DNA from: Pirellulales bacterium
GTDB lineage: Bacteria; Planctomycetota; Planctomycetia; Pirellulales; Lacipirellulaceae
Direction of reading: 5' to 3'
DNA: 64,000 bases
Assembly: GCA_019636345.1 (NCBI GenBank)
Contig: JAHBXQ010000001.1
Coordinates: forward strand, 649,985-713,984
Positions 16,938-28,041 of the stretch are shown here, in pieces. The position numbers and the translations under genes were made by a program. The notes beneath the pieces are model-generated. The model ran no database searches. It was not told the DNA's origin and saw nothing but the letters and a program-made list of their open reading frames with translations. Positions within the stretch are counted from its first letter, which is position 1. Every line of letters starts with the position of its first letter.

Positions 16938-17236
16938 CTGGGCCGAGGACTGCCGAGCCGGAGGAGGACGAACAGATCCGGACATGCCAGCGGCAGCGAG
17001 CGAGGATGCGGGCTTTGTCGCACTCCGCGGCCGTCGTCTGAGGCGGGATGCGAACGGCCCGCCTGCGCAACCTGGGCAAACTTCTCCGCGCCGATTGCGG
17101 TTTCCGGGGCGATATTGCCATTTTGGGGGAGTCTCGACAGGGGGGGAAGTCGGCGAATAAAATGGACTCCTACGAGCGACGGCCGCATCGGTGTCTGTTC
17201 GCTCGCCCCCGCCCACCCCGGAGCCGTCTGGCTCGC

Positions 17237-19222
17237 ATGTTGTCGACGTTCTCGCACGACCGGCTTGCCGCCGCTCATCGTGCCGCCCTTGAGCAGTTGG
17301 CCCGCGCCCGCGACGTGCGCGGTTGTTGGGCTGGCGTTCTGTCCAGCAGTCCGCTGGCCACGGCCGCTGCGATCAGTGCGCTGGCCCTCGCCGAGCGGAA
17401 CGTCGACTCGGCGCCCGACGGGCTCGATCCCCTGCACGACAGTTGGCTCGGCGGGGTCCTCATGCGGACCGAGTTGAACGAACTGGTCGGCAGCGGATTG
17501 CGGTGGCTCGCCGACCAGCAGAATCCCGACGGCGGCTGGGCCGACGCGAAGCCGGGGCGGTCGAACCTCGTCACGACGATGGCGGTCGAGGCGGCGTTTC
17601 ACCTGACTGGCGTTCCGGCCAAGTGTGCGAACATGATGGAGCGCGCCCGGGCGTTCATCGCCGAGGAGGGGGGCGCGGCGGCGCTGCGCGATCATCGCGG
17701 CCCGCGCCGCACTGTGGCCGCGGGCGTGCTCGCCCTGCATGCCGCTGCCAGTTTGACCCCGTGGAGCAAAACCCCCTGTCGCTGGGCGACGCTCGTGCTG
17801 TTCGGCGCGGGGCGGCGAAGCCGCGACACCGCGGGCTCCGTGGCCGACGAAATTCTGCGCACCGCCGTCGCGGTCGCGCGGGGGGCGAACCTTCAGCGGT
17901 TCCATCCCCTGCGCGGCGCCGTGAGCGGCGCGGCGCGATCGCACGCCCTGGCGTTCCTTCAATCGAAACAATCGTCCGCGGGGGGCTTCCTCGATTCCCC
18001 CGCCATCACGGCCCTGGTCGCCGGCGCGCTGGCGAGCGCGGGGCTGGCCGACGCGGCGCTCGTGCGGCAAGCGGTCGAGTTTCTGCTCTCCACCGTGCGC
18101 GGCGACGGCAGTTGGCCCGCTTGCGTCGACACGGCCGTGCGCGACACCACGGCGGCCTTGGCCGGCAGTCAGTGGCATGACCAACTGTTCGCGCCTCGCA
18201 ATGAACTGAGCGACGTCGCCGCGGCCGAGTCGCACGGCCCGTCGGTCGAGGCGGAGCGGACCATGCGGTGGTTGCTTGACGCCCAGCGGACGTCGACCCG
18301 CGTGCGCGGCGGTCGCAAGCGACTCGGCTGGGCGTCCACCTGCCGCCCCGACGGCGAGTCGAGCGTCTACGACACCGCCGGGGCGCTGATGGCTCTGGCA
18401 AGTTGGCGGCGGCGCTGGCCCAATGCGTTGCCGGCCGAGGTACGCCAAGCGGCGTTCGCGGGATTGGATTGGCTGATCGGCGCGGTCCTCTCGACCGCGC
18501 GCTACTCGGGGCTTTCGCTTTGGCCGCTGTTCGGGGCGCGCAGTCGCCTCTTCAAGCTCGACGTGGCCGCGACGGCGCAGGCCTTGCGGGCCATGTTCCA
18601 GTGGCGGCAGTTGATCCATCGCGATACGGCCGGTTCGTTCGATACGCGCTTGCAGAAGGCCATGTCGTGGGGCGTGAAACAGCTCATCGCGGCCCAGCGC
18701 GAAGACGGTTCATGGAGCGCCGACGGTCGTCGGACCGGGTCCATCGAGCAAGCCAGTCACGCCGTCGCCTCGACCGCCGCCGCGCTGCAAGCCTGCGCCG
18801 AGTTGGGGCTGGTCGAGCAGGAGCCCGTGTTGCGCGCGGCCCGCTGGTTGGCCGGAGCGCAGCATGCGTGCGGGGGGTGGGGCCCGGCGCCGCGGCAATC
18901 GGGCAGCTACGCTCGCAAACGCGACGCCGTGCAAGCCGAGGCCGAGGCGGCGCGCTGCACGATCGAGGAAACCGCCGCCGCGATCGCCGCGCTGGCGCCA
19001 TTTGCGGCCGATTCGCTGTGCGAGAAGGCCCTCGCCGTGGGCGCCGAATGGCTGGCCGAGGCAATGTTAGCCGACGCACGGTGCGCGCCGGCGACCATGT
19101 CGCTGGCTTGGTCGCGGTTGTGGTACCATGACTCTCTGGCGGCTCCGGTGGCTGCCGTCGCGGCTTTGGGCCGGGTGACGTCCGCGGGACCTGCAGCCGC
19201 CGAGACGATTCCCGCCCGGTAG
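17237..19222 (+). CDS. Squalene-hopene-cyclase-like / prenyltransferase-repeat protein
   Basis: This 661-residue protein is built of alpha/alpha-toroid repeats. QW-type motifs are seen around residue 98 (QNPDGGWAD), 288 (GDGSWPACVDTAV), 488 (QREDGSWSADG) and 543 (CGGWGPAPR). The size is that of squalene-hopene cyclases. The canonical acid motif DXDDTA is not intact; the aligned site reads SSVYDTAG, so only the last Asp (379) remains. This argues against classical squalene protonation and for a diverged function. Neighbours downstream are chorismate-lyase-like and halogenase-like genes on the same strand. The start at MLSTFSHDR was chosen over a longer low-complexity extension. Confidence 0.7.
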   Translation: MLSTFSHDRLAAAHRAALEQLARARDVRGCWAGVLSSSPLATAAAISALALAERNVDSAPDGLDPLHDSWLGGVLMRTELNELVGSGLRWLADQQNPDGGWADAKPGRSNLVTTMAVEAAFHLTGVPAKCANMMERARAFIAEEGGAAALRDHRGPRRTVAAGVLALHAAASLTPWSKTPCRWATLVLFGAGRRSRDTAGSVADEILRTAVAVARGANLQRFHPLRGAVSGAARSHALAFLQSKQSSAGGFLDSPAITALVAGALASAGLADAALVRQAVEFLLSTVRGDGSWPACVDTAVRDTTAALAGSQWHDQLFAPRNELSDVAAAESHGPSVEAERTMRWLLDAQRTSTRVRGGRKRLGWASTCRPDGESSVYDTAGALMALASWRRRWPNALPAEVRQAAFAGLDWLIGAVLSTARYSGLSLWPLFGARSRLFKLDVAATAQALRAMFQWRQLIHRDTAGSFDTRLQKAMSWGVKQLIAAQREDGSWSADGRRTGSIEQASHAVASTAAALQACAELGLVEQEPVLRAARWLAGAQHACGGWGPAPRQSGSYARKRDAVQAEAEAARCTIEETAAAIAALAPFAADSLCEKALAVGAEWLAEAMLADARCAPATMSLAWSRLWYHDSLAAPVAAVAALGRVTSAGPAAAETIPAR

Positions 19223-19297: not shown

Positions 19298-19819
19298 GTG
19301 GAACTTGCCGCTGAGCTCGCTGAGTTGTTTTTCGATTCGCTGGCCGAGGTCGGAGAGTTGATCCCCGTCGGCCCGAGCGAGATGCCGGTCGACTACGCCG
19401 TGCTTCTGGCCCACGACGACCACATGACGGTGACGATCGAGGCGTTCCACGGTTCGCTTGTCAACGTGCTCCCCTTGAAGGTGGTCGAGGAGGAGGATTT
19501 CTACGCCCGCACAAGTCTGTTGGTCCGGCAGACGGACGACGAGATCGTCCAGTTCGGGATCATGCGGATTCGCTTGCCGGACCTGCCGGGCGCCGTGCAG
19601 GCGGAGATTGCCTCGGGCCGAACCCCGCTGGGGCGGGTCCTGTTGCGTCACAACGTGCTCCGGCACGTGGAACTGCGGCGATTATGGCGGGTGAACCCCG
19701 GGCCCCAGCTTCGGTTACATTGGGACCTGGATCCCAACGAGTGCGTTTACGGCCGGTCCGCGGGGATTTGGTTCGACAGCGTCCCCGCGGTGGATCTCTT
19801 GGAGATCGTGCGACTATGA
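19298..19819 (+). CDS. Chorismate-lyase-like protein (UbiC/DUF98 type)
   Basis: This 173-residue protein resembles UbiC. The alignable features are YARTSLLV with Arg71 (UbiC Arg76), TPLGR at residues 109-113, VYGRSAGIWFD (UbiC WGRRS) and a final LLEIV with Glu169 (UbiC Glu155). UbiC-type enzymes split chorismate into 4-hydroxybenzoate and pyruvate. The catalytic Arg and Glu are kept, so activity is plausible. The start is a GTG. The stop codon overlaps the ATG of the halogenase-like gene by four bases (ATGA), which couples the two and suggests that their products act in sequence. Confidence 0.7.
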   Translation: MELAAELAELFFDSLAEVGELIPVGPSEMPVDYAVLLAHDDHMTVTIEAFHGSLVNVLPLKVVEEEDFYARTSLLVRQTDDEIVQFGIMRIRLPDLPGAVQAEIASGRTPLGRVLLRHNVLRHVELRRLWRVNPGPQLRLHWDLDPNECVYGRSAGIWFDSVPAVDLLEIVRL

Positions 19820-21120
19820 CGGCGTTTGCTCCGGAGTACGATTGCGTGGTGCTGGGCGGCGGGCCGGCGGGCTCGACCTGCGCGGGTCTCGTGGCCGAGG
19901 CGGGCTTCAAGACGCTGCTGGTCGAGCGCGAGCGGATGCCCCGCGAGCACATCGGCGAGTCGCTGATGCCCGAGACCTACTGGGTCTTCGAGCGGTTGGG
20001 CGTGCTCGACAAAATCGAGGCCGCCGGCTACGCCAAGAAGGTCGGCGTCCAGTTCGTGAACAACACGGGGCGCGAGTCGGCGCCGTTCTTTTTTCGCTCG
20101 CACGACGATCGAGTCTCAAGCGAAACCTGGCACGTCGATCGGGCCCACTTCGACAAGCTGCTGTTCGACCACGCGGCTGAAAAGGGCGCCGACTGCCGCG
20201 ACGGCTCGCGCGCACTGGAAGTGCTCCTGGACGGCGACAAGGCTCGCGGAGTCAAACTGCAAGTCGTCAACGACGACGGCGTGACCGAAACGATCGACGT
20301 CGCCGCCCGCGTGGTCGTCGACGCCACGGGGCAGAGCGCGATCCTGTCTTCGAGATTGGGGCTGCGAAAGATCAATCCCAAGCTCAAGAAGGCGGCCGTT
20401 TGGCGACACTTCCGCGGCGCCTCGCGCGACGAGGAAGGGGGCGGGGTCAAGACGCTCGTCATGCACACCGACCAAGGCAAGTCGTGGTTCTGGTACATCC
20501 CTCAGGCCGACGACGTCGTGAGCGTCGGGGTCGTCGGCGACAGCGAGTACCTGTTCAAAGGCCGCGGCACGCCGGCGGAGGTGTTCGCCGAAGAGGTCGC
20601 CAAGTGCCCGGGGCTGAAGCAACGGCTCGCCGACGCCCTGCCCGTCGACGAGATCAGCGTCGCCAAGGAATTCTCCTACGTCACCGATCGCTCGGCCGGG
20701 GAGGGCTGGGTCCTCGTCGGCGACGCCTGGGGATTTATCGACCCGGTCTACTCCAGCGGCGTTTACTTCGCGCTCAAGTCGGCGGAACTCGCGGCCGATT
20801 GCGTTATCGAGGGGCTTCGCACCGGCGACGTCAGCGGGGCGCAGCTCGGCAAGTGGCTCCCCCATTTCGGCGAGAGGACGACGCTCGTCCGAAAATTGGT
20901 GCACGCCTTCTACTCGGGCCAGTTCCGCGTCGGCAAGTTCCTCATGGAGTATCCGCAGCACAACTCCGAGCTGGTCGACCTGCTGATCGGCCGCGTCTTC
21001 GGACCGGATAAAGGGGCGATTTTCGAGGATCTGGAACCGTGGCTCGACCGCGCGCTGGCCGGCGAGTTCGACAACGATGCCGCGACCGGCGACGACGCCA
21101 ACGTCCCGGCGATGGCGTAG
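19816..21120 (+). CDS. Flavin-dependent-halogenase-like FAD oxidoreductase
   Basis: This 434-residue FAD protein has GGGPAGS (residues 14-20) for dinucleotide binding and HIGESLMP (45-52). It carries both motifs used to mark flavin-dependent halogenases: WFWYIP (224-229, pattern WxWxIP) and FIDPVYSSG (307-315, pattern FxxPxxSxG). Lys74/Lys75 lie where the hypohalite-activating lysine is expected. It resembles the phenol- and pyrrole-type enzymes (CmlS/PltA group) more than tryptophan halogenases. Related FAD enzymes without halogenase activity exist, so the reaction is inferred. Coupling to the chorismate-lyase-like gene suggests a phenolic substrate. Confidence 0.75.
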   Translation: MTAFAPEYDCVVLGGGPAGSTCAGLVAEAGFKTLLVERERMPREHIGESLMPETYWVFERLGVLDKIEAAGYAKKVGVQFVNNTGRESAPFFFRSHDDRVSSETWHVDRAHFDKLLFDHAAEKGADCRDGSRALEVLLDGDKARGVKLQVVNDDGVTETIDVAARVVVDATGQSAILSSRLGLRKINPKLKKAAVWRHFRGASRDEEGGGVKTLVMHTDQGKSWFWYIPQADDVVSVGVVGDSEYLFKGRGTPAEVFAEEVAKCPGLKQRLADALPVDEISVAKEFSYVTDRSAGEGWVLVGDAWGFIDPVYSSGVYFALKSAELAADCVIEGLRTGDVSGAQLGKWLPHFGERTTLVRKLVHAFYSGQFRVGKFLMEYPQHNSELVDLLIGRVFGPDKGAIFEDLEPWLDRALAGEFDNDAATGDDANVPAMA

Positions 21121-21257: not shown

Positions 21258-22559
21258 ATGCGAATCGCCTATCTCGCCGCCGGCGCCGCAGGCATGTACT
21301 GCGGGAGTTGTCTGCACGACAACGCCCTGGCGGCTGCGCTGATGGCGCGGGGCGAGGACGTGGTGCTCGCCCCCATTTACACGCCAATCCGCACCGACGA
21401 GCGCGACGTCAGCGAGCGGCGCGTCTTCTTCGGCGGGATCAACGCCTTCCTCCAGCAGAAGTTTCCGCTGTTTCGCCGCACCCCGCGGTGGCTCGACGGC
21501 TGGCTTGATCACCCGGCCGTGTTGCGGCTGGTCGCGTCTCGCGGCAGCAGCGTCGATCCGGCGAAGCTGGGCGACATGACCGTCTCGATGCTTCGCGGCG
21601 AGGAGGGGAACCAGACCAAGGAACTGGCGAAGCTCGTCGACTGGCTGCTGACCGAGGTGCGGCCCGACGTCGTCCACCTGTCGAACTCGATGATGCTGGG
21701 ACTGGCCCGGATGATCTCCCGCCGCTGCGGGCCGCCGGTCATTTGCGCGCTGTCGGGAGAGGACATTTTCCTGGAAAAGCTCGTCCCGCCCCACTACGAG
21801 TCGGCCCGAGAGTTGCTTCGCGAGCGAGCCGCCGACGTCGACGCCTTCACGGCCCTCAACGGCTATTTCGCCGATTACATGGCCGATTACCTCGCCGTCC
21901 CGCGAGACCGCATTCATGTCATCCCCCACGGCCTGAACTTGGCCGAGGCGGACGGCACGGCCCCCCCGCCGACCGACGGACCGCCCCGCATCGGCTATCT
22001 CGCTCGCATCTGCGCGGACAAGGGGCTCCATGTGCTGGTCGAGGCATGCGAACTGCTGGCAGATCGCCGCCCGAGTCGGGCGTTTGAACTGCACGTCGCC
22101 GGTTACCTGGGCGCCGGCGATCGCAAGTACTTTGCGGAGCTCAAGCGGCGGATCACGGCGGGGCCGTTGCGAACTCGGTTCCGCTATCACGGCGAGGTCA
22201 GTCGAGCGGAGAAGCTGGCGTTTCTACGCTCGCTGCGCGTCATGAGCACGCCGACCGTCTATCGCGAAAGCAAAGGATTGCCCGTTTTAGAGGCCTGGGC
22301 CTGTGCGCGGCCGACCGTGTTGCCGGCGCACGGTGCGTTCCCCGAAATGTGCGCCGCGACGGAAGGGGGCGTCATGCACGAGCCGCATGACGCCAAGGAC
22401 CTTGCGGACAAACTGCTCGTGTTTCTCGACGATCCTGTCCGTGCTGCAGAAATGGGGAAACGCGCTCGCCAAGCGATGGAAAACAGCTACAATGACTGGC
22501 AGATGGCGGACCGAACATTGGCGTTGTACAAAACGCTCGTGCGTGAAAGAGGAGTCTGA
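21258..22559 (+). CDS. GT4-family glycosyltransferase
   Basis: This 433-residue GT-B enzyme has the N-terminal glycine-rich AYLAAGAAGMYCGSCLHD segment and the C-terminal nucleotide-sugar site with the ESKGLPVLE motif (Glu-x7-Glu). It also has HVIPHGLNL and RIGYLARICADKGLHVLVEA, typical of retaining GT4 enzymes. Donor and acceptor are unknown. It is 137 bases downstream of the halogenase-like gene on the same strand, so it could glycosylate a product of that pair, but it could equally act on lipids or polysaccharide. Confidence 0.87.
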   Translation: MRIAYLAAGAAGMYCGSCLHDNALAAALMARGEDVVLAPIYTPIRTDERDVSERRVFFGGINAFLQQKFPLFRRTPRWLDGWLDHPAVLRLVASRGSSVDPAKLGDMTVSMLRGEEGNQTKELAKLVDWLLTEVRPDVVHLSNSMMLGLARMISRRCGPPVICALSGEDIFLEKLVPPHYESARELLRERAADVDAFTALNGYFADYMADYLAVPRDRIHVIPHGLNLAEADGTAPPPTDGPPRIGYLARICADKGLHVLVEACELLADRRPSRAFELHVAGYLGAGDRKYFAELKRRITAGPLRTRFRYHGEVSRAEKLAFLRSLRVMSTPTVYRESKGLPVLEAWACARPTVLPAHGAFPEMCAATEGGVMHEPHDAKDLADKLLVFLDDPVRAAEMGKRARQAMENSYNDWQMADRTLALYKTLVRERGV

Positions 22560-22631: not shown

Positions 22632-24644
22632 ATGGATGCTGAATCCGGGACCGACCATGCCCTCGCCGCAACCGGCGAATCGGGCATCTTCAATCTCCAG
22701 CCCTGGCTGGCGACGTGGCAGAACGACTATCTGTTCTACCGCCTCGACGACCAGCAGCGGATCCAGTTCGTCTCCCCCTCGGTGCGGCGCATCCTCGGCT
22801 ACGAGCCGAAGGAGATGCTCGGCTGCAATTACCGGGACTTCATGGACCTGGACCATCCGCTCCACGCCCAATTGCAGGATTTGTCCGATCGATTGCTCGC
22901 CGGGGCCCTGACGGGGCTGAGACGCTGCGTCGCCCGCCGCCAGGACGGAAGTCTCGCGTTCTTGGCCCTGCGGGAGCGGCCTGTCGCGGACCAGCGGGGT
23001 CGGCAGATCGGCGTCGAGGCGATGGCCCAAGACGAGACGGCCCGCGTCAACGCCGAATTGTCGCTCCGGCAAAGCGAACGCAAGTACCGCCGGTTGGTGG
23101 AAGGGCTCAAAGGGGGCGACTACGTCATCTACTCCCATACCGCCGAGGGAGTGATCACCTACGTCAGCCCCTCGGTTCGCGAAGTGCTCGGGTTCCCCGT
23201 CGAGGAGGTCGTCGGCAAAAATTGGCGCGACTTTATCGGGCCCGACAATTACGGCCGGGCCGCGGCGGATCGCTCCAAGCGCGACGTCGAGGGTCGCAAG
23301 TCGCTGTACAAACTGGTCGTCGAAATCCGTCATCACAACGGCTCGCCCCGACTGTTGGAGATTCAGGAGCGCCCCATCTTCGGCTTCGACGGCCGGTATC
23401 TGGCGATGGAGGGGATCGCCAAGGACGTGACCGAAGCGACTCGCACCGCGCACGAGTTGCAGGCTCTGAAAGAGGAGCTTGAACAGCGCGTCGCCGCGCG
23501 TACGGCGGAGTTGTCCGACGCGATCTGCGAGATGCGGCGCAGCGAGGCCCGGTATCGCAACGTCGTCGAGACGCAGGAGGAATTCATCACTCGATGGCGT
23601 CCCGACGGCACGCGGACGTTCGTCAACGAGGCGTATTGTCGATATTTTCAGCGGACGCGCGATCAATTGCTCGGTCGGAACTTCTTGGAATTTATCGTCG
23701 AGGCGGAACGAGAGACGTTTCTTCGCTCGACGGAGTCGCTGACGCCGGCGCAGTCGTCGATCGCTTACGACCAGCACGTCTATCGCCCCGACGGTTCGAT
23801 CGGTTGCATTCAGTGGTCGGATCGCGCGTTTTTCGACGCCGACGGACGACCGATCGAGTACCAATCGGTGGGGCGCGACGTGACGGAACTGCGTCGCGCC
23901 GCCGAGCAGCTTCACGAGCAGGAACTGCAGTTGGCTCACGTCTCGCGGCTGGCGACGATGGGGGAACTGGTCGCGGGGATCGCTCACGAAGTGCACCAGC
24001 CGCTTCATGCCGCCCGCACGTTCGCCGAGGCGGCTCGTCGCCACTTGGCGATCGGGAAGCCCGAATCGCACGCCGCCGCCGTCGAGTGCACGCGCGAGGT
24101 CGAGGCCTGCATCAGTCGCACGGCCAGCATCATCCGGCGCATGCGAAACTTCACCAAATCGCAACCGGTGAAGATGGAGCGGCTCGATCTGAACGAGGTG
24201 CTCGTCGAGTCGCTCGAAGCGATGGCGTTCGAAACGCGCCGGGCCAAGGTTCGTCAGGTCGTCGCTCTGGCCCCCGGATTGGCGCCGATCGAGGGGGATC
24301 GGATCCAACTGCAGCAGGTCTTCGTCAATTTGCTGTTGAACGCCTGCGAAGCGATGGAGTCGACGCCGGTCGAGGAGCGCACTCTGACGATCACGACCAC
24401 GGCCGAGGCCGACGGGATCGACGTCGCGTTTCGCGACGCCGGTCCGGGAATACCGCACAACGCGCGGGAACGCGTGTTCGACGCCTTCTTTACGACCAAA
24501 GAAGGAGGCATGGGGATGGGGTTGTCGCTGTGTCGAACGATCGCCGCGGCGCATCAGGCCCGCCTGCGGTTCGAATCGAACGCCCCGGAACCGGGCTGCA
24601 CGTTTCACTTCTTCGTACCTCTTGCTCTCCGTCGAGTGTCGTGA
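22632..24644 (+). CDS. Triple-PAS sensor histidine kinase
   Basis: This 670-residue kinase has no membrane segment, so it should be cytosolic. Three PAS/PAC units are seen at about residues 30-140, 155-270 and 300-420, the first beginning RIQFVSPSVRRILGYEP. A short coiled coil links to the HisKA domain with the phospho-acceptor His452 in GIAHEVHQPL. The ATPase domain has the N-box QVFVNLLLNACEAM, DAGPGIP and the FFTTKEGGMGMGLSL G-boxes. This architecture is FixL/TodS-like. The gene overlaps the response regulator by four bases (GTGA), making a clear two-component pair. Confidence 0.92.
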   Translation: MDAESGTDHALAATGESGIFNLQPWLATWQNDYLFYRLDDQQRIQFVSPSVRRILGYEPKEMLGCNYRDFMDLDHPLHAQLQDLSDRLLAGALTGLRRCVARRQDGSLAFLALRERPVADQRGRQIGVEAMAQDETARVNAELSLRQSERKYRRLVEGLKGGDYVIYSHTAEGVITYVSPSVREVLGFPVEEVVGKNWRDFIGPDNYGRAAADRSKRDVEGRKSLYKLVVEIRHHNGSPRLLEIQERPIFGFDGRYLAMEGIAKDVTEATRTAHELQALKEELEQRVAARTAELSDAICEMRRSEARYRNVVETQEEFITRWRPDGTRTFVNEAYCRYFQRTRDQLLGRNFLEFIVEAERETFLRSTESLTPAQSSIAYDQHVYRPDGSIGCIQWSDRAFFDADGRPIEYQSVGRDVTELRRAAEQLHEQELQLAHVSRLATMGELVAGIAHEVHQPLHAARTFAEAARRHLAIGKPESHAAAVECTREVEACISRTASIIRRMRNFTKSQPVKMERLDLNEVLVESLEAMAFETRRAKVRQVVALAPGLAPIEGDRIQLQQVFVNLLLNACEAMESTPVEERTLTITTTAEADGIDVAFRDAGPGIPHNARERVFDAFFTTKEGGMGMGLSLCRTIAAAHQARLRFESNAPEPGCTFHFFVPLALRRVS

Positions 24645-25258
24645 CAGATCACGCTGTAGTTTACGCCATCGACGACGATGCGGCCTCGCGCAAGGCCGTT
24701 ACGGCGCTCGTCGGCGCGCTGGGGGTCGAGGCCGTCGGTTTCAGTTCGGCCGAGGAGTTTCTGTCCGCCTATCAGGGGCGCCGCCCCGCGGTGATCGTCA
24801 CCGACGTGCGAATGCTGGGGATGAGCGGCGTCGAGTTGCAGGAGGAGTTGCACCGGCGCGGAGTCGCGATCCCTGTGATCGTGATGACGGCCTATGCGTC
24901 GACGCAGTTGACGGTGCGCGCCATGCGAAACGGGGCCGTCACCCTGCTCGAAAAGCCGTGCAACGAAAACGAACTGTGGGAGGCGATCCGCGACTCCCTG
25001 GCCGCTGATCGCGAGGCATGGCAATTGGAACTGCAGCGGATCGACACGCAGGCGCGACTCCGCTTGATGTCCGAGAAGGAGCGGCAAGTGCTCGACTGCA
25101 TGATTGCCGGGGACGCCAACAAGGTGACGGCCCGCAAGCTTGACGTCAGCGTCCGCACCGTCGAGAACCACCGGCGGAAAGTGTTCGAAAAGATGGGGGT
25201 CGACTCCGTCGCCGAACTGGTGCGGCTGGTGCTGCTGGCCGAGCCGGGCGAGTCGTGA
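24641..25258 (+). CDS. FixJ-type response regulator
   Basis: This 205-residue regulator has an N-terminal receiver domain with the acidic pocket DDD near the start, the phospho-acceptor Asp55 (VIVTDVRML), MTAYAS and the Lys of LLEKPC. The C-terminal LuxR-type helix-turn-helix reads SEKERQVLDCMIAGDANKVTARKL, then VSVRTVENHRRKVFEKMGV. The GTG start sits inside the stop of the kinase gene (GTGA), which fixes the start and the pairing. It should activate transcription when phosphorylated by the upstream kinase. Confidence 0.92.
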   Translation: MTDHAVVYAIDDDAASRKAVTALVGALGVEAVGFSSAEEFLSAYQGRRPAVIVTDVRMLGMSGVELQEELHRRGVAIPVIVMTAYASTQLTVRAMRNGAVTLLEKPCNENELWEAIRDSLAADREAWQLELQRIDTQARLRLMSEKERQVLDCMIAGDANKVTARKLDVSVRTVENHRRKVFEKMGVDSVAELVRLVLLAEPGES

Positions 25259-25330
25259 TCGCTTCTTGGCCTCGCCCGGGGGGGTGAGCGGTCGCTTGCC
25301 GGCAGCGCGCCGGGCCGCGGTTCTCCGGTT

Positions 25331-25361
25331 CGTTGCGACCGTTGCAGCACCGCTCGCAACG
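25331..25361. repeat. Inverted repeat between two response regulators
   Basis: CGTTGCGA (25331-25338) and TCGCAACG (25354-25361) are perfect 8-base arms with a 15-base loop. It lies in the 316-base gap between the two FixJ-type regulators, which otherwise shows no gene. It could be a weak terminator for the kinase operon or an operator. No T-run follows. Confidence 0.35.
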
Positions 25362-25574
25362 GGCGGCGCGTGTGGGTTTCCACATGCAAGCCGCGGCAAG
25401 TGCGGATAATCCCCGCATCTTCTCCCGCTAGGATAACTGTGCGGGTCGGCTGGTCGGACAGACCGTCCCGTGAATCCGGGCGTCGTCTCGGTCGTTCCGA
25501 GCAATTTGGTCGAGCCGCCAGGGCCGCCGCGCCCCGCTCGCTCGACTAGGTTTTCGACAGCATGAGAGGCGAAT

Positions 25575-26264
25575 ATGCAAGAATATGATCGGGATCTCGA
25601 ACCCATCGTATCGATCGTCGACGACGATCCGGCGGCTTGCCGCGCTGTGGCCGAATTGGTGCAAACCTTCGGTCTGCAAGTCAAGACATATCAAGCGGCC
25701 AGGGACTTTCTCTCGGACGTCAAGCAGGATCGCCCAGGGTGCGTCGTGCTCGATCTCAGGATGCCCGAGGTCAACGGGATGGAACTCCACCAGCAGATTG
25801 TCGAGCGGGGGCTCGTCTCGCCGGTCGTGATCCTCACGGGCTATGCCGACACCCCTTCGACGGTTCGCTCGCTGCAGCAAGGCGCCGTCTCGGTCATCGA
25901 CAAGCCCTACCGCGAGGACGAACTGTGGCGAGCGATCCAGGAGGCGATCGACAAGAGCCGTAAGTTGCTTCGCCGAGCGAAGTTCCAGCAGACGGTGGAA
26001 AGCCGACTGCGGCAATTGGGTCCCCAGGACCGCGAGGTGCTGAATCTGATGCTCGCCGGGACCAAGAACCGCAGCATCGCCACGAAGTTGAACGTGAGCC
26101 TGCGGACGGTCGAAAACCGCCGCCGTCGCGTGTTCGACGTGATGCAAGCCGATTCGGTCGCCAAGCTGACGCGGCTCATCGTCGAGTACGAGTACGGGGT
26201 GGTCCCGGCGAGCAGCCCGTCCGAAGCCTGGCTGAGCCTGCCGTACGAGCGGGTCGCGGGCTGA
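25575..26264 (+). CDS. Second FixJ-type response regulator, orphan
   Basis: This 229-residue regulator has the same architecture as the one upstream: receiver (VSIVDDDP, phospho-acceptor Asp60 in CVVLDLRMPEVNG, LTGYADTP, Lys of VIDKPY) and a LuxR-type helix-turn-helix (LGPQDREVLNLMLAGTKNRSIATKLNVSLRTVENRRRRVFDVM). A Shine-Dalgarno-like AGAGG precedes the ATG. No kinase is adjacent, so it may share the kinase at 22632 or be cross-regulated. The C-terminus has a longer tail (about 25 residues) than its neighbour. The two regulators probably arose by duplication. Confidence 0.88.
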   Translation: MQEYDRDLEPIVSIVDDDPAACRAVAELVQTFGLQVKTYQAARDFLSDVKQDRPGCVVLDLRMPEVNGMELHQQIVERGLVSPVVILTGYADTPSTVRSLQQGAVSVIDKPYREDELWRAIQEAIDKSRKLLRRAKFQQTVESRLRQLGPQDREVLNLMLAGTKNRSIATKLNVSLRTVENRRRRVFDVMQADSVAKLTRLIVEYEYGVVPASSPSEAWLSLPYERVAG

Positions 26265-26564: not shown

Positions 26565-26804
26565 ATGTCGCGCAGAAAAGTCAGCCGAGCGATTAAGAAA
26601 GACCCGTTGTGCGTCGACGGCGTCCGGCCCCGGCCGATGTTCGTCGATTACAAGGACCTCGATTTGCTCAGCAAGCTGACCAATCGCCACGGGCGGATCG
26701 TCAGCCGGCGCAAGACCGGTTGCCAGGCTGCCAGCCAGCATGCGGTCGCCAAGGCGATCAAGCGGGCTCGCTTCATGGCCCTGCTGCCGTACGTCGGCGC
26801 CTGA
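26565..26804 (+). CDS. rpsR: 30S ribosomal protein S18
   Basis: This 79-residue protein matches bS18: the DYKDLDLLSKLTNRHGRIVSRRKTG core followed by HAVAKAIKRARFMALLPYV at the C-terminus. S18 binds with S6 to the platform of the small subunit. In many bacteria the gene lies between rpsF/ssb and rplI. Here it stands alone, with a strong hairpin before it and a thioesterase gene after it. The genome may hold another copy in the usual operon, which cannot be seen here. Confidence 0.92.
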   Translation: MSRRKVSRAIKKDPLCVDGVRPRPMFVDYKDLDLLSKLTNRHGRIVSRRKTGCQAASQHAVAKAIKRARFMALLPYVGA

Positions 26805-26913: not shown

Positions 26914-27345
26914 ATGAACCAACCCTTCCGAACGACGCGGATGGTTGAGTTCCATGACACCGACATGGCGGGGATCATGCACTTTGCGTCGTTCTTCTGC
27001 TACATGGAGTCGGCTGAGCACGAGTTGCTCCGCTCCTTGGGCCTCTCAGTCAATTCGATGTTCGAGGGGGCCCCGGTCAGCTTTCCCCGGGTTGCGGCCT
27101 CGTGCGAGTACCGCTCGCCCGCCCACTGCGAGGAGATCCTCGACGTCGAGGTCGGCGTGCAACGACTCGGCACGCGCAGCGTGACCTACTCGTTTCGCTT
27201 CACCCACGGCGACCGCGTGGTGGCCGAGGGGGCGATGACGAGCGTCTGCTGCTTCATGCGGCCCGGGCATCGGCCCCAATCGATGCCGATCCCGGCGGAC
27301 GTCGTCGAGAAACTGGCGGCCTTCGTGGTTTCCGGCGACGCGTGA
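26914..27345 (+). CDS. YbgC-type acyl-CoA thioesterase
   Basis: This 143-residue hot-dog-fold protein has the 4-hydroxybenzoyl-CoA thioesterase/YbgC signature: VEFHDTDMAGIMHFASFFCYMESAEHELL with Asp and His in the active-site region. It would hydrolyse short or aromatic acyl-CoA esters; the substrate is unknown. The ATG at 26914 gives the normal N-terminus, although the frame is open further upstream. It lies 18 bases before the LolD-like gene and could share a transcript with it. Confidence 0.82.
   Translation: MNQPFRTTRMVEFHDTDMAGIMHFASFFCYMESAEHELLRSLGLSVNSMFEGAPVSFPRVAASCEYRSPAHCEEILDVEVGVQRLGTRSVTYSFRFTHGDRVVAEGAMTSVCCFMRPGHRPQSMPIPADVVEKLAAFVVSGDA

Positions 27346-27363: not shown

Positions 27364-28041
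<678 letters not shown>

Follow-up and report, generated by a model that had tools for sequence, protein, structure and literature searches.

A chorismate-lyase-like gene overlapping a flavin-halogenase-like gene as a candidate part of a conserved planctomycete pathway

In a 64,000-nucleotide stretch of the genome of a Pirellulales bacterium of the family Lacipirellulaceae (GenBank assembly GCA_019636345.1, contig JAHBXQ010000001.1, positions 649,985 to 713,984; hereafter the window), a gene for a chorismate-lyase-like protein overlaps a gene for a flavin adenine dinucleotide (FAD) protein that resembles the flavin-dependent halogenases. The reading we favour, tentatively and with slightly less than even confidence, is that, in a pathway conserved among planctomycetes, the first enzyme supplies the aromatic precursor and the second carries out a flavin-dependent step in which 4-hydroxybenzoate or one of its derivatives would be halogenated. 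The pair sits on contig C1 of a 5.2 Mb genome:

19298..19819, + strand: chorismate-lyase-like gene, 173 amino acids, GTG start; assigned from residues and predicted fold
19816..21120, + strand: flavin-dependent halogenase-like FAD gene, 434 amino acids, ATG start; assigned from motifs, nearest solved relatives and tree

By their open reading frame (ORF) coordinates the genes share four bases, ATGA (19816–19819), an overlap already noted in an earlier sequence-only reading of this DNA, which had proposed that a UbiC-like enzyme and a halogenase might here form a halogenated-phenol pathway. The FAD frame opens at 19684 in the mechanical ORF list, and conservation starts just past the ATG at 19816. 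Conservation of both proteins, together with that of the gene order, rules out a chance reading of these frames.

In family searches the FAD protein passed the Pfam Trp_halogenase model (84 bits, cut-off 21), and the lyase-like protein alone matched no Pfam or NCBIfam family. Trp_halogenase also matched in 5 of 14 control genomes, E. coli included, so this match is not specific. A profile of 32 FAD sequences was read against solved structures, with a cut at E 1e-20. Ten distinct sequences were recovered at 302–217 bits, namely nine named halogenases and 3nix, an unnamed flavoprotein (249 bits); among the former were FasV (302), PltA (276), CndH (269), Mpy16 (268), ChlB4 (260), CmlS (242), Bmp2 (234–236) and RadH (217). 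The reductase-like 3oz2 scored 79 bits, some 140–220 below the nearest halogenases. Foldseek placed the same halogenase set first. These profile and fold comparisons support the grouping of the FAD enzyme with the flavin halogenases, away from the non-halogenating reductases, an outcome in favour of the sequence-only reading.

The motifs tell a similar story. WxWxIP (224–229; W224-F-W226-Y-I228-P229) and FxxPxxSxG (307–315; F307-P310-S313-G315) are both present where the sequence-only reading had placed them; the protein also has a GxGxxG motif. WxWxIP and FxxPxxSxG are almost invariant across 90 aligned FAD rows, a phylum-wide set that includes the window and some duplicates. K75, W226, P229, F307, P310, S313 and G315 were kept in all 90; W224 was kept in 88, the two deviating rows belonging to a single genome, and I228 in 87. 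The catalytic lysine had been proposed as Lys74 or Lys75; it is the second that is invariant and aligns with a lysine of CndH, FasV and PltA. One review describes this lysine as crucial for halogenation and reports a proposal that WxWxIP prevents hydroxylation (PMC10696468); a second source also deals with the meaning of flavin halogenase motifs (PMC9469721). The planctomycete protein thus has fold, lysine, WxWxIP and FxxPxxSxG in common with PltA, CndH, FasV and Bmp2. It differs from them in sequence, with 28–32% identity in the Foldseek alignments, and in that 82 of the 86 planctomycete rows cluster together separately (Shimodaira–Hasegawa approximate likelihood-ratio support 94), PltA grouping with three distant planctomycete rows; this was a quick tree with long outgroup branches, and it is relied on for large groups only. 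L177, L179, L160 and L161 were dropped from the 90 rows for this tree; L132, a repeat of the window, had not been one of the 90.

A halogenase fold does not necessarily imply halogenation. QhpG, which is structurally closest to CmlS, hydroxylates a tryptophan (PMC7876137), and we consider it unlikely, yet worth weighing, that the FAD enzyme similarly hydroxylates or reduces its substrate. The FAD protein scored 128 bits on the NCBIfam QhpG model (cut-off 240) and 139 bits on the geranylgeranyl-reductase subfamily TIGR02032 (cut-off 158.8), below threshold in both cases, and the known halogenases CtcP (130 bits) and PltM (100 bits) are far more distant from the profile than the set above. A secondary-metabolism halogenase would, moreover, be unusual in most genomes of a family. 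What tells against a hydroxylase or reductase is the lysine kept in every row, the nearly complete retention of WxWxIP with the role proposed for it, and the distance of 3oz2 from the nearest halogenases. A carrier-bound substrate found no support: a motif scan of eight loci for carrier proteins, a weak test, gave two implausible frames only.

Against solved chains the lyase-like protein produced a single chance-level match (E 0.44), and a profile of 30 lyase-like sequences reached 2nwi_A at E 0.14, amid other chance-level matches. PF01947 (chorismate pyruvate-lyase) was touched by 3 of the 30 relatives, with a best E of 0.0028, and PF04345 found nothing in five genomes holding both genes, the E. 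coli control being found. An AlphaFold2 model (mean predicted local distance difference test score, pLDDT, 95.7) matched the DUF98 protein 2nwi at Z 16.8 over 141 residues; with the E. coli chorismate lyase UbiC (1g1b and 1fw9) it reached Z 11.6, 133 residues being aligned. The sequence-only reading had held that the catalytic Arg71 and Glu169 and a TPLGR motif were kept. In an alignment of the window protein with 29 relatives, R71, E169, P110, G112 and R113 are invariant and L111 is nearly so; T109 is not (the loop is called PLGR below). R71, E169 and PLGR are the presumed counterparts of Arg76, Glu155 and the Leu115 loop of UbiC. The protein resembles Rv2949c/DUF98 and the UbiC chorismate lyases in its fold and in possessing the Arg, the Glu and the PLGR loop, and differs from them in remaining under the curated cut-offs of PF01947 and PF04345. 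Its assignment as a lyase combines the weak matches of a few relatives with the fold and the residues; on that basis it is predicted to make 4-hydroxybenzoate, and the proposal of a UbiC-like enzyme stands as to fold and residues though not as to curated family.

The same fold is found in UTRA-type effector domains, which match the model as well as UbiC does (3f8l, Z 12.6, and below), and 2 of the 30 relatives touched UTRA (best E 0.0012). By fold alone enzyme and UTRA domain are inseparable. The lyase-like protein might accordingly be a non-catalytic, ligand-binding UTRA-type domain and the pair a conserved operon without enzymatic coupling, which we regard as improbable. The conserved R71, E169 and PLGR loop argue for an enzyme, the best structural match, 2nwi, lies 4 Z units above the UTRA domains, and the predicted chain is too short to hold a DNA-binding domain.

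Both proteins are widely retained among relatives. Of 59 relatives, 51 have the lyase and 55 the FAD protein (two by weak matches only), and their coordinates make the genes same-strand neighbours in 27 of the 30 members of the family that carry the lyase. In a phylum sample of 294 planctomycete genomes the lyase occurred in 44, of which 24 carry an FAD gene less than 500 bases away on the same strand. A strong FAD match, defined as E 1e-100 (a threshold chosen post hoc at a gap from 366 to 319 bits in a list limited to E 1e-30), accompanied the lyase in 43 of the 44; in the exception, G203, the FAD match fell under the cut-off. A scan of a genome collection yielded 343 lyase relatives. The best 80 of these, nearest to the query (hereafter the titled loci), were all titled planctomycete or plain ‘bacterium’, and of the 77 with at least 700 bases to the right, 39 have the FAD gene immediately after the lyase. 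They include loci of the cultured Lacipirellula limnantheis, Botrimarina colliarenosi, Adhaeretor mobilis and strain 10988, in each of which the pair is present.

Several observations weigh against a strict coupling of the two genes. The conservation as neighbours that was foreseen for the pair holds in the family and in lineages outside the class, again in favour of the sequence-only reading, but in the rest of the order FAD adjoins the lyase in just 5 of 21 lyase-bearing genomes, and no FAD gene was found beside the lyase in 20 of the 44 phylum-sample genomes (among these, G175 is probably cut by contig ends and G203 has a weak lyase match). Furthermore, of the 59 genomes of the phylum sample that possess the FAD enzyme and a HemN-like radical S-adenosylmethionine (SAM) enzyme, 17 lack a detected lyase, and at L163, L168 and L174 the FAD gene follows immediately on the HemN-like gene, without an intervening lyase, suggesting that the lyase is dispensable or replaced. 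In the quick tree, lyase-linked FAD genes are spread over several separate groups; the 11 unlinked Pirellulales FAD genes first fetched share a single group of 19 with FAD genes from other families, six of them lying beside a MarR-type gene, and other unlinked rows group with linked ones. From these sequence groupings we take the lyase–FAD link to be an old one that has probably been lost or rebuilt repeatedly.

This second group of FAD genes, apart from the lyase and beside a MarR-type gene, was seen at six loci (L084, L088, L090, L092, L097 and L099); all the halogenase motifs checked are kept there.

The pair is part of a larger gene set, and the earlier proposal of a two-gene pathway, which the lyase fold, the halogenase grouping and the linkage favour, has to be widened to that extent. 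Outside the class, at L126 and L128–L131, the order is SSS transporter, AMP-binding enzyme, aldehyde dehydrogenase, iron-dependent alcohol dehydrogenase, pyrroloquinoline quinone (PQQ)-repeat protein, HemN-like radical SAM enzyme, lyase, FAD enzyme, glycosyltransferase of family 4 (GT4), 4HBT thioesterase, small protein, PaaK-like ligase, LolD-like ATP-binding cassette (ABC) ATPase and FtsX permease, although not every locus has the full series. At L126 a family search identified an FtsX domain in the neighbour of the LolD-like ATPase gene. The remaining members with counterparts in the window, and one frequent upstream neighbour, are:

21258..22559, + strand: GT4-type glycosyltransferase gene, next after the FAD gene in many near and distant relatives
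26914..27345, + strand: YbgC/4HBT-type thioesterase gene, a member of the conserved neighbourhood; signalling genes intervene here
27364..28041, + strand: LolD-like ABC transporter ATPase gene, often next after the thioesterase in relatives
17048..19222, + strand: squalene-cyclase-like gene, frequent upstream neighbour of the pair

The name LolD for 27364..28041 was assigned by reading the sequence, as were the SSS label and those of the bS18, kinase and response regulator genes described below; other labels of the wider set come from family searches and were carried over by BLAST.

It is the HemN-like enzyme, rather than the lyase, that the FAD enzyme tracks more strictly in the phylum sample. 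The HemN-like enzyme was detected in 59 of the 294 genomes at E 1e-80, and all 59 have a strong FAD match, out of 61 genomes with such a match in total; the lyase is present in 42 of the 59, and conversely 42 of the 44 lyase-bearing genomes have the HemN-like enzyme (hypergeometric p-values for these co-occurrences ignore relatedness and are not to be taken literally). The HemN-like gene lies less than 500 bases from the lyase and on the same strand in at least 25 genomes, 36 of the 59 positions having been entered. Of the 21 genomes sampled from the window's class, 20 have both the HemN-like and the FAD enzyme; elsewhere in the phylum the two occur in scattered lineages, making this radical SAM enzyme a constant partner beyond the class itself. 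The window genome has most of the wider set, but split: HemN-like (74% identical to that of another family), PQQ-repeat, alcohol dehydrogenase and aldehyde dehydrogenase genes are found from C1:854936 on, and an AMP-ligase gene (77%) at C1:892995, approximately 184 and 222 kb from the pair. The four genes at C1 ~855–860 kb (L186 8937–14603; aldehyde dehydrogenase, iron-dependent alcohol dehydrogenase, PQQ-repeat and HemN-like) are consecutive; in distant relatives they are joined to the pair. The combination of AMP-ligase with aldehyde and alcohol dehydrogenases suggests carboxylate reduction. In coelulatin biosynthesis, the methylation of an anthraquinone is reported to be the work of a HemN-like enzyme (PMC9714029).

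We infer the two reactions of the pair, the order of the steps and the product as follows. The lyase-like enzyme would split chorismate into pyruvate and 4-hydroxybenzoate. The FAD enzyme, using FADH2 from a general flavin reductase, would convert oxygen and chloride or bromide to hypohalous acid, which would be relayed through K75 to halogenate the electron-rich ring of 4-hydroxybenzoate or a derivative. The AMP-ligase, aldehyde and alcohol dehydrogenases, HemN-like enzyme, thioesterase, GT4 enzyme and LolD-type exporter might serve to activate or reduce, alkylate, attach and export the acid. That the GT4 enzyme glycosylates the product is a guess from gene position alone.

A halogenated compound derived from 4-hydroxybenzoate is the simplest reading of this gene set, and a plausible one that fits two products reported from planctomycetes. 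In a review, strain 10988 is said to make 3,5-dibromo-p-anisic acid, a dibrominated and O-methylated 4-hydroxybenzoate, and alichondrichlorin of Alienimonas chondri, the genes for which are termed unknown, is described as joining 4-hydroxybenzoate to a chlorinated fatty acid by an ester bond (PMC12078418). Strain 10988 carries the pair on CP043547.1 at about 6188649–6190648, and in a search limited to Pfam Trp_halogenase its FAD protein is the sole gene product of that genome with a match. Counting against this connection, a scan of four of six unlabelled ORFs around the pair of strain 10988 revealed no O-methyltransferase, so the dibromo acid may derive from another locus. Panter 2019 reportedly postulated candidate genes for 3,5-dibromo-p-anisic acid, which may be this pair or others. 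In a kelp-microbiome paper, antiSMASH predicts this compound in another planctomycete isolate (PMC12642873); a reference cluster therefore seems to exist, and the pair may be in print within it. In the accessible portions of the literature on planctomycete halogenase clusters, chorismate lyases, dibromo-p-anisic acid and alichondrichlorin we did not find the gene set described, though Panter 2019 may describe it. The pair offers a definite candidate locus for the products of planctomycetes that are halogenated or contain 4-hydroxybenzoate; for one of these, a 2025 review terms the genes unknown.

A chorismate lyase feeding a flavin halogenase is of a known kind, and part of the gene set may already be published. 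In the bmp-type set that yields 4-BP (tetrabromo-biphenyldiol) in a marine gammaproteobacterium, a chorismate lyase likewise supplies a flavin halogenase, one that the sequence-only reading places in another subfamily. That set includes a cytochrome P450; none is among the planctomycete cluster families identified, no dedicated P450 search having been made. The planctomycete set differs also in the HemN-like radical SAM, carboxylate-reduction, GT4 and exporter genes that accompany the pair. 4-BP was reportedly obtained by co-expressing three genes with chorismate and bromide (PMC10579414).

Alichondrichlorin, in which 4-hydroxybenzoate is united with a chlorine-bearing chain, also raises a different possibility. 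The lyase would still make 4-hydroxybenzoate, but the FAD enzyme would halogenate a fatty or isoprenoid chain, the two parts being joined as an ester or ether lipid; the AMP-ligase and the aldehyde and alcohol dehydrogenases would provide the alcohol, and the acyl-CoA would be the business of the thioesterase and of the PaaK-like ligase. Besides Alienimonas chondri, a chlorinated fatty acid is reported for R. baltica in the same review (PMC12078418), and the wider cluster contains both the carboxylate-reduction genes and a PaaK/FlxY-like ligase. CmlS, a relative of the FAD protein, is termed an alkylhalidase in the PDB. The isoprenoid neighbours are suggestive as well: in Pirellulales, a gene in which DUF116 is fused to a polyprenyl diphosphate synthase immediately precedes the lyase at 55 of the 78 titled loci that have at least 700 bases to the left (for example L083 8135–9982), and parts of the isoprenoid group lie near the FAD gene, without the lyase, in the distant loci L171, L172 and L175. 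Even so, the DUF116–isoprenyl synthase fusion was not found in the window genome (95.9% complete), in which the search matched two genes by their synthase part only; the one of these that was scanned has no DUF116 domain. We consider halogenation of a chain rather unlikely and continue to prefer the aromatic ring as the target.

In Pirellulales the isoprenoid group often includes a squalene-cyclase-like gene and, at some loci, also a ferredoxin and a second radical SAM enzyme. A DxDD pattern is present in 13 of 20 cyclase-like homologues of the fetched loci; the one in L072, close to the N-terminus, is probably a chance occurrence, and of the seven proteins without the pattern those of L062, L066 and L070 are short forms. 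The cyclase-like protein of the window (17048–19222) has no DxDD pattern, which looks like a loss of catalysis in this lineage. A meroterpenoid reading for this organism is weakened by this and by the failure to find the DUF116 fusion. A ubiquinone-like pathway was rejected as the principal explanation, no dedicated 4-hydroxybenzoate prenyltransferase being recognised among three UbiA-family genes. Judged from the surrounding ORFs, these would be a CtaB-like gene beside cytochrome-oxidase genes, a gene beside UbiX-like and MqnE-like genes (menaquinone by the futalosine route) and an EboC-like gene beside sugar-isomerase-like genes.

Halogenases are usually patchy genes of secondary metabolism; it is surprising to see a halogenase-type gene with fixed motifs in most members of the family, and its gene set retained across the greater part of a class. 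One broader scenario, which we put forward as speculation and think unlikely, is that a flavin halogenase belongs to the near-core metabolism of this planctomycete class. With the lyase, the HemN-like enzyme and the carboxylate-reduction module it would make a constitutive, exported, halogenated envelope compound derived from 4-hydroxybenzoate; in Pirellulales this would have merged with the isoprenoid module (DUF116–isoprenyl diphosphate synthase, DxDD terpene cyclase and second radical SAM enzyme) into a meroterpenoid-like pathway, from which the window lineage would have lost the synthase and the acid motif of the cyclase.

Between the GT4 and thioesterase genes of the window (22632–26264) lie genes for a PAS histidine kinase and two response regulators, and a similar trio precedes or trails the lyase and FAD genes in several relatives. 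A bS18-like gene (26574–26801) stands ahead of the thioesterase gene, inside the conserved neighbourhood, as it does in many relatives.

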